Of a stretch of 64,000 nucleotides of DNA, positions 14,484 to 50,603 are shown in pieces. The notes under the pieces were generated by a model that was not told the origin of the DNA, ran no database searches, and saw only the letters and a program-made list of their open reading frames with translations. The position numbers and the translations under genes are program-made. Position 1 is the stretch's first letter, and each line of letters opens with the position of its first letter. The stretch is from Corynebacterium bouchesdurhonense (lineage in GTDB: Bacteria > Actinomycetota > Actinomycetes > Mycobacteriales > Mycobacteriaceae): positions 124,001 through 188,000 of the forward strand of contig NZ_LT546027.1 of assembly GCF_900078305.2 (NCBI RefSeq), read 5' to 3'.

Positions 14484-14650
14484 TTCCGCGCGGCGGAATA
14501 CCCTGAACCAGAGGTTGAGAGTGTTCCGCCCGGCGGAACAACGGGCGACGGGCAACGCGGGCGGCGTTCGATCTACGCCCGGTTCGCGGCCACAGTTCCG
14601 CCGGGCGGAAAACCTTCAAGTGGTGCTTGAGGGTGTTCCGCCGGGCGGAA
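14484..14650. repeat. Two-unit palindromic repeat element (REP/BIME-like), four 15-bp palindromes
   Basis: Four copies of the palindrome TTCCGCCSGGCGGAA: 14484-14498 (TTCCGCGCGGCGGAA), 14524-14538, 14596-14610 and 14636-14650. They form two units, each two palindromes exactly 40 nt apart, start to start. Inside each unit the spacer is itself a dyad (CCTTCAAG tggtg CTTGAGGG in unit 2; CTGAACC aga GGTTGAG in unit 1), so each unit can fold into one long hairpin. A fifth single palindrome is at 50589. It occupies most of the 311-nt gap between the HNH gene and ileS. Confidence 0.8.
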
Positions 14651-31686: not shown

Positions 31687-33234
31687 TTACTCCCCACCTA
31701 TCCGGTGCACTCGCGCTTCCAGCGCGCGGGCCATCTCTTCCCTGTCGTCGAAGTGGTGCGTGGTGGTGCCCACAATCTGGCCCACCTCGTGGCCCTTGCC
31801 CACCACAATCACCGCGTCGCCGGGCAGGGCCCAGGCCACAAGCTGATCGATGGCCTCGCCGCGGTGGCCCACTTCCCGGATCTCCACGCCCGCGCCGGCC
31901 GCCTCCCGCGCGCCCTCGAGGACCGCGGCGCGGATGGCGGCGGGGTCCTCGGTTCGCGGGTTGTCGTCGGTGACAATCACCAGGTCGGCGCGCGCCGCGG
32001 CCTCGCGGCCCATCACGGGGCGCTTGGACGCGTCGCGGTCGCCGCCGGCGCCGAGCACTACCCCGACGCGCCCACTGACCTGCCCGCGCAGCGTGTCCAG
32101 GACAGCGGCCACGGCGGCGGGCTTGTGCGCGTAGTCCACCACGGCCACGAAGTCCTGACCGCGGTCGATGCGCTGCATCCGGCCCGGCACGCTGGCCTCG
32201 GAGAGGCCCGAGATGAACGCTTCCGGGTCCACCCCCACCTCGGCGGCGAGCGCGACGGCTAGCGCGGCGTTGGCTACGTTGAACGCGCCGGGCAGGGGCA
32301 AGGTGAACTCATAGGTTGCGTCGCCAAGCACGAGCTCCACCTCCTGCGCACCCGAATCGTCGGCGCCGAGCTGGGTGGCGGCAACATCCACGCCGGCCTG
32401 GCCGCGCGTGCCCACTGTGACGGGGTTGCGCGCCACGCGGGCCATGCGCTCGCCCCACTCGTCGTCGACGCAGATCACGCTGCGCTCAGCATGAAGCGGG
32501 GAGGCCGGGTCAAAGAAGAGGGCTTTCGCCTCGAAGTAGTCCTCCATCGTCGGGTGGAAGTCGAGGTGGTCCTGGGAGAGGTTGGTAAAACCGGCTGCGT
32601 CGAAAAGCGTGCCCCCAACCCTGCCGAGCATGAGCGCGTGGGAGGACACCTCCATCACCACGTGCGTGACCCCCTCGCGCGCCATGCGGGCGAACAGCGC
32701 CTGCAGCGTCGGTGCCTCGGGGGTGGTCAGCGCGGTAGGCACGTCCACGCCCTTGATGCGGGTGCCGGTGGTGCCGATCAGCCCCACGCTGCATCCGGCC
32801 GCGGTCAGGCCCCGCTCCAAGAGGTAGGTCGTGGTGGTTTTGCCGCTCGTGCCGGTCACGCCGATGAGCTTCATGCTTTTCGACGCCCACCCGTACACCT
32901 CGGCCGCGACCTCGCCCAGCACCCGCCGCACGTCATCAACCACGAGGACCGGGCGCGTGTCCGGGGTGCCCGCGATGATGGCCAGGCCCTCCCGGTCGGT
33001 GAGGATCGCGCCGGCGGCGGAGTCGAAGGCGTAGCGGGCGCCGTGCACGCGCGTGCCCGGCAGCGCCGCGAAGAGGCCGCCCGGCTCGACGGCCGCGGAA
33101 TCCAGGCTCACCGACGCAACCGGCCAGTCCGCCCGCGGCGCGTGCACCAGCTCGGCGCCCGCGATCTCCGCCAGCCTCGCCAGGGTTGGCCCGGCTGCCC
33201 GGTCCGCGTCTGCCGCGTGTGTCACGTGTGTCAC
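31687..33234 (-). CDS. murE: UDP-MurNAc-L-Ala-D-Glu--meso-DAP ligase
   Basis: Adds meso-diaminopimelate to the stem peptide. 515 aa; motifs SLDSAAVEPGGLFAALPGTR, ATPase loop GVTGTSGKTTTTYLLERGL, EVSSHALMLGRVGG, FTNLSQDHLDFHPTMEDYFE, and the DAP-specificity motif DNPR in VIVTDDNPRTEDPAAIRA. DNPR indicates a meso-DAP rather than Lys peptidoglycan, consistent with ltsA downstream in the window (DAP amidation). 40 nt separate it from ftsI. Confidence 0.97.
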   Translation of the reverse strand: MTHVTHAADADRAAGPTLARLAEIAGAELVHAPRADWPVASVSLDSAAVEPGGLFAALPGTRVHGARYAFDSAAGAILTDREGLAIIAGTPDTRPVLVVDDVRRVLGEVAAEVYGWASKSMKLIGVTGTSGKTTTTYLLERGLTAAGCSVGLIGTTGTRIKGVDVPTALTTPEAPTLQALFARMAREGVTHVVMEVSSHALMLGRVGGTLFDAAGFTNLSQDHLDFHPTMEDYFEAKALFFDPASPLHAERSVICVDDEWGERMARVARNPVTVGTRGQAGVDVAATQLGADDSGAQEVELVLGDATYEFTLPLPGAFNVANAALAVALAAEVGVDPEAFISGLSEASVPGRMQRIDRGQDFVAVVDYAHKPAAVAAVLDTLRGQVSGRVGVVLGAGGDRDASKRPVMGREAAARADLVIVTDDNPRTEDPAAIRAAVLEGAREAAGAGVEIREVGHRGEAIDQLVAWALPGDAVIVVGKGHEVGQIVGTTTHHFDDREEMARALEARVHRIGGE

Positions 33235-33274: not shown

Positions 33275-35251
33275 CTATTGTGCCTGGAGCACGAACGGCT
33301 CGGCCGGCGGGCTCAGCGGGACGTTTTCCCGGTTCAGCAGCCAGCTAGCGATCTCCTTGAACACCGGCGCCGCCGACTGGCCGCCCATGCCGCCGCGCAG
33401 CGGGCCGCGCTGGGGCTCGTCCAGCATGATGGCCACCACAAAACGCGGGTCGTCCGCCGGAGCGATGCCCGCGAAGGTGATCCAGAACTGGCTCTGGGAG
33501 TACGCGCCCGTCTCCTCGTTCACCTTCTGCGCGGTGCCCGTCTTGCCGGCCAGCTGGTAACCCTCCAGCTCGCTGCCGCCTGCGGTGCCGTTCTGCAGCC
33601 CCGCCGGGTCCGACTGGAAGGTGGAGCGGAACATGTCCACCACCGTGCGCGCCGTCTCCTCGCTCACCACACGGGTGCGCTCCGGGGCCGGCTGCGCCAC
33701 CTCCTGGCCGTCCGGGCCGGTCACCTTGGAGATGATGCGCGGCTCCACCCGCTCCCCGCCGTTGGCCAGAGACTGGTACACGCTGGCTAGCTGCAGGGAG
33801 GTCCAGCTCATGCCCTGCCCGATGGGCAGGTTGGCAAAGGTGCCGCCCGACCACTGCTCTCGCACCGGGACGAGGCCAGCGGACTCGTTGGGCAGCTCGA
33901 TGCCGGTGGTTGTGCCGATGCCGAAGCGCTGAAGGTAGTCCCAGTACCGGTCCTCCCCCAGCTGCTGCGCGAGCTGCAGGGTACCCACGTTGGAGGACTT
34001 ACCAAAGATGCCCGCCGTGGTGTACGGCGCGACACCGTGCGGCCAGGCATCGTTGACCGTGATGCCGGCCATGTCGATCGAGCCCGGCACCTGGTGCACC
34101 TGCTTCGGGTCGGTCAACCCCTCCTCGATCGCGGCGGCAGCGGTGATGATCTTCGCCACCGAGCCCGGCTCGAAGGGGTGGGAAATGGCGATGTTTTCAA
34201 AGTCGCGCCCCTGCGCCAGCTGCTTCTCCAGGTTGCCGTTCGGGTCGATGGTGTCCGTGTTCGCCATCGCGAGCACCTCGCCCGTGTGCGCGTCCAGCAC
34301 CACCGCCTGCGCGTCCTTGGCCAGCGAGTTCTCCTTCGCCTGCTCGAGGGTCTGCTGCACGAACGTCTGCAGGTCCAGGTCGATGGTCAGCTCGATCTTG
34401 GCGCCGTCCACCGCCGGCACCACGTCGCGCAGCGTGCCGGGGATGGACTGCCCGTCGCCCGAGACGTCCTCGGTAGAGCGCCCGTTGATGCCGGTGAGCA
34501 CCGCGTCGCTGGACGCCTCCAGGCCGAACTGGCCGTGCCCGTCCATGGAGACCTTGCCCAGGATGTTCTCCCCGATCGCCCCGTTGGGGTACTGGCGGAT
34601 GTCCTGGCGGTCCGCCGCCACGCCGTGGAACTTCGACGCAATCTGCTGCGCCACGTCCGGGTCCACGTTGCGCACCAGCACCTCGTAGTCGGTGTCCGCG
34701 CGCAGCTTGTCCAGGATCTCCCGCGAGCTCACGTCGCCCACGCGGGTGTGGTCGGCCTCCGCGTCCTTTTCCTTATCAGTGCTCTGGCCGCCCTCCGCGC
34801 CGATCATGGTCGGAATTTCGTTGGCCATGGTGCGCAGCACGTCCTCGACCCGGGCGTCGATCTGCGCGTCGATGGCCTCCCTCGAGGCGCCGTCGATACG
34901 CATTTGCAGCTCCTGCTGCTCGCGGATCTCCTTGCGCAGGGTCATCGGCGAAACGGTCAGGGAGCGGGCCTGCATGGTGTACGCGAGGCGGTTGCCGTTG
35001 CGGTCCACCACCTCGCCGCGGCGCGCGGGTTCATCGTAAACGCGCTCGCGCTGGTGCTGAGCCTGCACGCGGAGGTCCGAGCCCCACACCACCTGCACCC
35101 AGAACAGGCGGCCGATCAGCAGCGCGCCGACCGCGAGGAAGACCACCGCTAGCCAGAACGCGCGGCGGTTCGTTACCTGCGCCTGCGATTCGGGGGCTTT
35201 TGCTTGCCGACGCCCCCCACGCGGCCCACCGCCTCTCACCACGCTGCCCAC
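33275..35251 (-). CDS. ftsI: Septal transpeptidase, class B PBP (FtsI/PBP3)
   Basis: Cross-links septal peptidoglycan with FtsW. 658 aa: cytoplasmic basic N-terminus, one membrane segment (FWLAVVFLAVGALLIGRLFW), PBP dimerisation domain, and transpeptidase domain with SxxK in FEPGSVAKIITAAAA (near residue 362), SxN in FGKSSNVGTLQLAQ (near 420) and KTG in YQLAGKTGTAQKVNEETGA (near 570). No PASTA domain follows; it ends EPFVLQAQ. The N-terminal codons for RRQAKAPES contain the recurrent 11-mer (35202-35212). Located 73 nt downstream of ftsL. Confidence 0.96.
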   Translation of the reverse strand: MGSVVRGGGPRGGRRQAKAPESQAQVTNRRAFWLAVVFLAVGALLIGRLFWVQVVWGSDLRVQAQHQRERVYDEPARRGEVVDRNGNRLAYTMQARSLTVSPMTLRKEIREQQELQMRIDGASREAIDAQIDARVEDVLRTMANEIPTMIGAEGGQSTDKEKDAEADHTRVGDVSSREILDKLRADTDYEVLVRNVDPDVAQQIASKFHGVAADRQDIRQYPNGAIGENILGKVSMDGHGQFGLEASSDAVLTGINGRSTEDVSGDGQSIPGTLRDVVPAVDGAKIELTIDLDLQTFVQQTLEQAKENSLAKDAQAVVLDAHTGEVLAMANTDTIDPNGNLEKQLAQGRDFENIAISHPFEPGSVAKIITAAAAIEEGLTDPKQVHQVPGSIDMAGITVNDAWPHGVAPYTTAGIFGKSSNVGTLQLAQQLGEDRYWDYLQRFGIGTTTGIELPNESAGLVPVREQWSGGTFANLPIGQGMSWTSLQLASVYQSLANGGERVEPRIISKVTGPDGQEVAQPAPERTRVVSEETARTVVDMFRSTFQSDPAGLQNGTAGGSELEGYQLAGKTGTAQKVNEETGAYSQSQFWITFAGIAPADDPRFVVAIMLDEPQRGPLRGGMGGQSAAPVFKEIASWLLNRENVPLSPPAEPFVLQAQ

Positions 35252-35324: not shown

Positions 35325-36029
35325 CTAGAAGTTGGCGGGAACGTTTGGCTGGTACGGCAGTAGGGTGTCCACGGCCGGGCCCGCGTTCCCCGGTTGCCCC
35401 AGCACGTTGCCGCCCGGCAGCTGGGTCAGGGAATCGCCCAGCTCGCTCGTGGCGCGCTGGTCGCTCGACGCGCGGGTCGCCCGCGTCGGCGCACCGTTCA
35501 CGTCGCGCACCTGGGAGACCGACTCCGGGTTGAACTCGCGGCGGCGCTCCACGCGGCCGTCCGCGGCCACATCCACCACGCCCGGCTCTGAGGCGACGAG
35601 CATGCCGGACTCCGCCGCGCGCTGCGCGATCTCCGCGGTGGAGCGCAAGTCCTCCAAGTCGCGGTTGAGGGATTCGACCTCGTTCTTTAGGGTGCGCTCC
35701 TGCGACTGCAGCTGCTGGATGGCAAAAGTCTGCGTCGTGGACAGACCCGAAAGGAGCATCGCCACGGCCACGCCCACGATCAGCAGCACCACGGCCACGC
35801 CGCCGGTTTTCACCAGCGGGTTCTTCTCTTGGACGGGGCCCGCTACTCGACGCCCCCGGACGCTGACCACCTGCTGCGAGCCGAGCCGCCCCCGGGATTT
35901 GCCGTGCGGCACGTGCGGGCGCACGCCCGGCGCTTGGCCCGGCGCTTGGGCGGGAGTGGCCGTGCGCGACGGGCGGGTGCGCGGCAGCGTGGAGGTGCGA
36001 GGGGCGGAGGCGATGTCGCGGACTGCCAT
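35325..36029 (-). CDS. ftsL: FtsL-like divisome protein (internal start within the fused frame)
   Basis: The normal ftsL would be this 234-aa product: a basic Pro-rich N-terminus beginning [20 protein letters not shown], one membrane segment ([20 protein letters not shown]), a short coiled coil with heptads ([20 protein letters not shown], then [20 protein letters not shown]), and a disordered tail rich in Pro/Gly/Asn. Coiled-coil/TM architecture, size and position before ftsI identify it as FtsL. Its own ribosome site (AAGAGAG) and ATG lie inside the left arm of a perfect 70-bp inverted repeat, so they would be buried in a hairpin in the mRNA. It may therefore be made mainly as part of the fused frame. 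Confidence 0.8.
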
Positions 36030-37133
36030 GATGTCACTCTCTTTCGGGTCGTTGTGCGGGGGCTGGGGTGGAGAGAGTGACATCATGGCAGTCCGCGACA
36101 TCGCCTCCGCCCCTCGCACCTCCACGCTGCCGCGCACCCGCACCGGCGCCGCGCGGGAGTTGAGCTCGATCTCCGCCTCCGACGCCTTCTCCGCCCCGCG
36201 GGTGATCGGGGCGAAGCGCGCGGCGCTGCCGGGCAGATCCATCGGCAGGCCGGCCGGCGTAGTCGAGGTGGTCAGCTCGGCGAAGGCGGACTTGATGATC
36301 TTGTCCTCGAGCGACTGGTAACTCATGAACACCACGCGACCGCCCGGGCCGAGCAAGTCACAGATGACGGGCACGGCGTTCTCCACCGCCTCCAACTCGC
36401 GGTTGACCTCCACCCGCAGCGCCTGGAACGTGCGCTTGGCGGGGTGGCCGCCCGTGCGCCTCGAGGCCGCCGGGATCGTGTCGTAGAGCAGCTCCACCAG
36501 GCGGCCGCTGCGCTCGAACGGTTCGCGCTCGCGCTCCCTGAGCACGGCGGCCGCGATCTTGCCGGCGAAGCGCTCGTCGCCGTACGTTTTCAAAATGCGC
36601 GCGAGGTCCCCGTGCGAGTAGGTGTTGAGTACCTCCGCGGCGGTAATGCCCGCCGTGGGGTCCATCCGCATGTCCAGGGGCGCGTCCACCTTGTACGCAA
36701 AGCCGCGCTCCTCCTGATCCAGCTGCATCGAGGACACACCCAAGTCGAATAGGGCACCGGCAACCCCGACTTCGCGCACGGCATCGAAGGCGGGTCCGGT
36801 GCCGCCGAGGATCGGCTCGGCAATGTGATCGAAGCGGGCGCGGACCGGCGCAAACCTGTCGCCGAAGCGCTCGAGACGGGCGCACGCCTGCTCGAGCGCC
36901 GCGGGATCCCGGTCGACGCCGATGACACGGGCGCCCGGGAAGACGTTGAGGAAGTGCTCGGTGTGGCCGCCGGCTCCGAGGGTTGCGTCGACAAGCACAG
37001 CGCGATCCGCGAAGCGCTCCACGGCGGGAGCGAGCAACTCCGCCATCCGGTCGCGCATAACCGGCACGTGGCCGTGGTTCGCGTCGATGGAAAACTCCAT
37101 GTCCGCGGGCTGCGGAGACTGCTGCGATGCCAT
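35325..37133 (-). CDS. rsmH: RsmH (16S rRNA m4C1402 methyltransferase) fused in frame to FtsL
   Basis: Residues about 1-330 are a normal RsmH/Mra[19 protein letters not shown] loop [64 protein letters not shown] and [17 protein letters not shown], ending [10 protein letters not shown]. Instead of stopping there the frame runs on. Residues about 331-354 ([20 protein letters not shown]) are encoded by an inverted copy of the ftsL start, about 354-364 by the old intergenic spacer, and from Met-369 the protein is FtsL. Total 602 codons. This could be a real template-switch mutation or an assembly artefact. ATG 37133; an ATG at 37100 is also possible. Confidence 0.85.
35973..36141. repeat. Perfect 70-bp inverted repeat with 29-nt spacer at the rsmH/ftsL junction
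   Basis: Bases 35973-36042 are the exact reverse complement of 36072-36141, all 70 positions; the spacer is 36043-36071. The left arm is the genuine start of ftsL with its ribosome site; the right arm is an inverted copy placed at the end of rsmH. Both arms end at GCGGGTGCGCGG-type sequence that rsmH (coding VRVR) and ftsL (coding RTRP) would share by chance, i.e. inverted microhomology at the breakpoint. Confidence 0.95.
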
Positions 37134-37318: not shown

Positions 37319-37753
37319 TCACAGCAGACCGGAGAGAATGTCGTCATCGTCCGCCGCCGAGAAGGCGGCTTCGGTCTCTTGCTGGTAATTCGCCCAGGAC
37401 TCTGCGTCCCAGATCTCAAGAAAATCCACCGAGCCGATGACCACGCATTCCTTGGACAGGTTTGCGTACTCACGGTGCGCCGGCGACAGCGTGATGCGCC
37501 CCGAACCGTCCAGCGCCTGCTCATCCGCACTTGCAGCCAAGTTGCGGATGAACGCGCGCGCCTTCGGGTTCGTGCGAGAAGCCGCCGCCGCCTTGCGGGC
37601 GCGCGCGGCGAACTCCTCGCGGGGATAGACCGCCAGAGAGTGGTCCTGCCCCTTGGTCACCATCAACCCGTCCGCCAGGTCCTCGCGGAACTTGGCGGGC
37701 AGCGTCAGGCGCCCCTTGTCGTCGAGCTTGGGAGTGTAGGTTCCCAGAAACAT
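37319..37753 (-). CDS. mraZ: Transcriptional regulator MraZ
   Basis: Dodecameric DNA-binding regulator of the dcw cluster; 144 aa from ATG 37753, which gives the invariant start [20 protein letters not shown] and has GGAAGGTAGG upstream. Two SpoVT/AbrB-like halves are visible: [18 protein letters not shown] and [19 protein letters not shown]. The C-terminus is an acidic tail ([14 protein letters not shown]). Direct repeats of TGGGN with a 10-bp period lie upstream (37865-37890), the expected MraZ target, implying autoregulation of the cluster. Confidence 0.96.
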
Positions 37754-37864
37754 CGGGCGACCTACCTTTCCTTCACCTTCAGACTGGAAGCTCATGCAGT
37801 TTTCTTGACGCTTCGATCCGCACGGCCCATGTAGTCAGCACGGGCCCCACGTATCTCCGCTGCG

Positions 37865-50588: not shown

Positions 50589-50603
50589 TTCCGCCGGGCG
50601 GAA
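50589..50603. repeat. Solitary copy of the TTCCGCCGGGCGGAA palindrome
   Basis: Identical to the palindromes at 14596 and 14636; here a single unit without a partner 40 nt away. Confidence 0.8.

Follow-up and report, generated by a model that had tools for sequence, protein, structure and literature searches.

How do two genes of a cell-division operon, rsmH and ftsL, come to share a single open reading frame? The question is raised by a stretch of 64,000 nucleotides (nt) from Corynebacterium bouchesdurhonense, here called the window, which spans positions 124001-188000 of contig C17 in a genome assembly of 18 contigs and 2.26 Mb. Membership in Corynebacterium is supported by named relatives and by a tree of RsmH. 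On the minus strand, at 35325-37133 of the window, lies a fused rsmH-ftsL frame of 602 amino acids, and within it an inverted repeat with perfect arms of 70 base pairs (bp). The answer proposed here is that the fusion probably represents a real chromosomal mutation, brought about by one short-range double template switch of the quasipalindrome type during DNA replication.

The single frame of 602 codons, with the Met of FtsL at residue 369, was reproduced from the list of open reading frames as given in the preliminary description. Two NCBIfam models match the fused protein above their cut-offs, RsmH (TIGR00006) at residues 42-329 and FtsL_Actino (NF053549) at residues 446-522; among the Pfam models Methyltransf_5 matches residues 21-334, and FtsL is unmatched. 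A second FtsL was not found in the assembly, and a search of the assembly gave no further copy of the rsmH-ftsL junction, ordinary or otherwise.

The repeat described at the junction was likewise recovered by script. The stretch 35973-36042 is matched in exact reverse complement by 36072-36141 over 70 of 70 nt, with a spacer of 29 nt between the two. Perfect inverted repeats were searched for with a seed of 14 and a gap of up to about 700 in 304 kb of the genome, consisting of the window and 12 stretches of 20 kb. The second-longest repeat inside the window has arms of 18 bp, while the longest in the 240 kb from elsewhere in the same genome has arms of 28 bp. The 70-bp repeat is therefore an outlier, and chance is excluded. 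Among relatives, 150 loci other than the window's own, with some duplicates among them and 813,999 bases in total, were screened with gaps of up to 400. A perfect repeat with arms of at least 20 bp appears only in L041 (C. riegelii) and L122, where the arms measure 32 bp.

Some shorter repeats were recorded along the way. The next longest in the sampled genome is a perfect repeat of 28 bp with a 6-nt loop at C18:413867-413928 (L145), and another perfect one, of 27 bp with a 34-nt loop, is found at C18:654824-654911 (L146). In C. riegelii a near-perfect inverted repeat with 36-nt arms (97%) and a 46-nt gap is located at 1280-1397 of L041, outside the rsmH-ftsL junction.

The history of the two arms can be approached through the relatives. 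FtsL of genome G009 and of C. stercoris begins with MAVRDIASA, like the left arm. The right arm, when inverted, matches the ftsL start of G009 by 82% over 56 nt. Judged by these comparisons, the left arm (35973-36042) is the ancestral one, with the original ribosome-site region of ftsL, its ATG (36027-36029) and its first codons, and the right arm was copied from it, in agreement with the preliminary description. The right arm is, however, composed of two parts. Its outer 13 nt, GCGGGTGCGCGGC at 36129-36141, fit the native VRVRG codons of rsmH when aligned to the RVRG codons of relatives, and are the presumed switch point. The inner 57 nt (36072-36128) repeat the 5' region of ftsL in reverse complement, have no counterpart in the rsmH of relatives and encode residues unseen in the relatives examined. 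About 24 antisense-encoded residues had been suggested; new residues do exist, but since the outer 13 nt fit native codons, only 19 (336-354) are wholly new. The 29-nt spacer (36043-36071) starts with CCACCCCAGCCC, and as these bases also follow EKL(S) codons in the rsmH genes of L006/L047 (HMSC05H05), L058 and L129, it probably survives from the former rsmH tail or intergenic stretch.

In an ordinary Corynebacterium junction rsmH is followed by ftsL in the same orientation, as in the window, but rsmH ends with a stop codon of its own, which the window lacks. A survey by pattern covered 139 of 140 loci including the window (L093 was missed) and 109 unique junctions; the loci were drawn from two collections, and some genomes are duplicated. 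The rsmH stop is found 15-126 nt (5-42 codons) past the RVR codons in 138 of the 139 loci, and only the window reads on. The expectation that related rsmH genes terminate independently is thus borne out by all 138 other loci, though not the expected position near residue 335. The tree of RsmH has 83 rows, and its bootstrap had not fully settled; it places the window in a clade of eight with support 99/87, together with C. gottingense, C. riegelii, HMSC29G08, C. stercoris, G009, C. glaucum and G114, and all seven of these carry their own rsmH stop.

The search was also extended to the genus and the order. RsmH was found in 240 of 242 genomes of the genus, and at the DNA level the region is matched in all 61 relatives and in 234 of the 242 genus genomes. 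Among the matches listed for the genus (150), frames of at least 530 amino acids occur only in the present genome (605) and in G196 (714). The long frames of G196 and of the three that come next, G079, G224 and G095, were considered as fusions and rejected, being extended upstream only. The same applies to 11 other frames of at least 530 amino acids among the matches listed order-wide (298 genomes), which have their own rsmH stop and upstream extensions. No second rsmH-ftsL fusion was found among the matches listed, genus-wide or order-wide, and the portions consulted of the literature covering rsmH, ftsL and Corynebacterium do not mention one. A shared or ancient repeat was rejected as well: a screen allowing mismatches (score of at least 20, gap up to 300) of the 110 loci L004-L113 gave only the window's own locus (L004) and, away from the junction, L041, so that the repeat is absent from the 109 relative loci L005-L113.

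The preliminary description held that the rsmH stop had been lost by overwriting. The loss itself is evident, but the manner of it may have been different. At 36034-36036, with its T seven bases ahead of the A in the ftsL ATG, stands an out-of-frame TGA. It lines up with the TGA that ends rsmH in C. riegelii, HMSC29G08 and C. glaucum (among the loci L040, L041 and L078) and is a candidate for the former rsmH stop. Because of this alignment a frame shift is favoured over an overwritten stop, and the simplest history would be that the insertion shifted the frame past the old TGA and into that of ftsL. Alternatively, the spacer may keep the frame of L047 (LSPPQP), a nearer stop having been lost in another way.

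For the proposed template switch, we infer the event itself, its successive steps, the shift of frame and the resulting protein as follows. The nascent strand would have left its template at an inverted microhomology, GCGGGTGCGCGGC in the RVRG codons of rsmH and GCCGCGCACCCGC in the LPRTR codons of ftsL; the 13 nt are presumed to have been present before the event. About 57 nt of the ftsL start would then have been copied backwards, either from the other strand or from the nascent strand itself folded as a hairpin. The strand would then have gone back to the original template at what had been the tail of rsmH, probably through a microhomology of the CTCT type; CTCTCT adjoins CCACCCCAGCCC. With four points of switching, the pattern fits a template switch of short range. 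The event would have displaced the 3' end of rsmH and shifted its frame, so that the rsmH stop would go unread and translation would pass in frame through the ftsL ATG. The flanks on the two sides are collinear: beyond the copied part the sequence is back on the original strand and runs on through rsmH, and the arms are free of substitutions between them.

The rival explanation that survives best is a fold-back artefact, where a chimeric molecule from amplification or library construction, or an assembly error, has entered the consensus, while on the true chromosome rsmH would end at an ordinary stop and the ftsL start would be free. Chimeric reads from T7-replisome amplifications are dominated by inverted repeats, and the same paper cites high proportions of inverted chimeras in multiple-displacement amplification (PMC9484634). 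However, nearly all chimeric reads in the sections consulted of that paper show exactly two alignments, which corresponds to one switch, whereas the present sequence returns to the original strand. Since a one-switch fold-back chimera would not do so, a real mutation is favoured. It also speaks against an artefact that the search of the assembly revealed no ordinary copy of the junction, and that no other perfect repeat above 28 bp exists in the 304 kb sampled, so that this part of the assembly is not rich in fold-backs. An artefact is, all in all, rather unlikely.

Several observations nevertheless weigh against a real mutation. The repeat is perfect and is known from one assembly only, and the gene affected is held to be essential; in a transposon study of C. 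diphtheriae, ftsL_2, located beside mraZ and rsmH, is treated in a section on essential genes (PMC10166564, in part). The change would be expected to disturb the expression of FtsL, and a long stem is an expected target of RNase III, which is encoded in the genome. The arms in yeast coding genes reach up to 16 bp in the parts consulted of PMC8604942, far below the 70 bp found here. The nearest relatives are only about 81-83% identical to the window in the residues of RsmH, and the state before the event is thus not seen among them, so that we infer the return point. Finally, a microhomology of the GCGGGTGCGCGG type had been proposed for the outer breakpoint. C. stercoris, which lacks the arm, does contain 8 nt of such a seed, GTGCGCGG in rsmH and CCGCGCAC in ftsL, but this is not above chance, 106 of 108 other junctions having 5-9 nt and the highest 11. 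The seed argument therefore rests on the 13 nt of the window, which scores 19 nt in the same table, a figure that includes the copy itself.

If the mutation is real, the production of FtsL should be affected. The RNA of the region is predicted to fold with -185 kcal/mol, compared to -87 (standard deviation 4.7) for 200 shuffles, and the very stable stem contains the ftsL start, in keeping with the earlier proposal that this start is locked in a hairpin. According to this prediction, the 70-bp stem should impede ribosomes from starting independently at the ftsL ATG unless those translating rsmH open it. The N-terminus of FtsL is cytoplasmic, so that an RsmH-FtsL fusion is topologically plausible, and FtsL could be produced in this form. 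Fusions of the GFP-FtsL type are generally held to be fully functional. That FtsL can tolerate a cytoplasmic N-terminal partner in principle is suggested by the production of GFP-FtsL in E. coli strains (PMC7117782, in part). It may tentatively be proposed that this is a living Corynebacterium whose sole FtsL is an RsmH-FtsL fusion, and that one template switch both enclosed the ftsL start in a 70-bp hairpin and created read-through from rsmH, which would amount to the instant birth of a chimeric divisome protein. The only match to SbcD is below the cut-off (36.4 vs. 77.65 bits), and nothing is inferred from it about cleavage of the palindrome.

The stem could instead have been retained by selection to control ftsL, either by blocking the start unless rsmH is translated or by being cut by RNase III. 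The location of the ftsL start region within the predicted stem and the presence of an RNase III gene are compatible with this. A selected regulatory hairpin is still very improbable: the repeat is unseen in the relatives examined, its arms without substitutions give no sign of age, and altered expression would be a consequence of the mutation, not necessarily the reason for it. A phase-variable switch, in which inversion of the 29-nt spacer would turn the fusion on and off, is hardly credible and was rejected as a means of switching the frame, for although spacer inversion between perfect arms has been reported in yeast coding genes (PMC8604942, in part), the flipped spacer would have the same length and no stop here, leaving the frame open in either orientation.

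The genes around the fusion, named by reading, show the minus-strand order mraZ (37319-37795), rsmH, ftsL, ftsI (33275-35251) and murE (31687-33234). A consensus scan of 35600-36600 found no promoter-like sites and three terminator-like sites, all outside the repeat; the scan is blind to the 29-nt loop of the repeat. Elsewhere in the window a short palindrome, TTCCGC(C/G)(C/G)GGCGGAA, is present in four copies within 170 bp (14484-14650) just past the 3' end of ileS. The cluster adjoins an HNH/DUF222-like gene (gene names by reading, without family search). One more copy, at 50589-50603, lies approximately 70 bp beyond a cytochrome b-like gene, also named by reading, on its 3' side. Genome-wide the palindrome occurs in six places, all on contig C17, while the pattern read backwards occurs at none. 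It may bind a regulator or form a hairpin at 3' ends.

If real, the fusion would be an unusually large bacterial template-switch mutation, still perfect and situated in a conserved cell-division operon. It would show that a single replication error is able to fuse two genes, and would permit testing of whether FtsL functions when tethered to a cytoplasmic enzyme. If it is an artefact, it cautions against trusting a short perfect inverted repeat in an assembly unless reads support it.

Mutations of this type have been described in other systems, in the sources consulted in part here. In E. coli, quasipalindrome-associated template switching includes a return of the polymerase to the right template (PMC7202029), a feature shared with the event proposed for the window. 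The lacZ reporters of that work start from a palindrome already present and correct a difference of 4 bp within it, whereas the window has about 57 nt of new sequence and two genes joined into one frame. It has further been reported that a single template-switch event can create a hairpin (PMC8794818), and template-switch changes have been described in yeast coding genes (PMC8604942). In both cases one switch-and-return event yields a perfect stem, as proposed here, but the former deals with RNA genes and the latter with coding genes of yeast. Long, perfect and closely spaced repeats in coding sequence, like that of the window, are known from the mitochondria of Nematomorpha, where their mean spacing is 37 bp (PMC6649704). 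The four genomes described there contain 110 repeats of at least 15 bp, both arms of which encode conserved residues, while the window has one repeat, the right arm of which encodes residues unseen in relatives. The kind of mutation is thus already known, while its size, its place and the resulting gene fusion are unusual.
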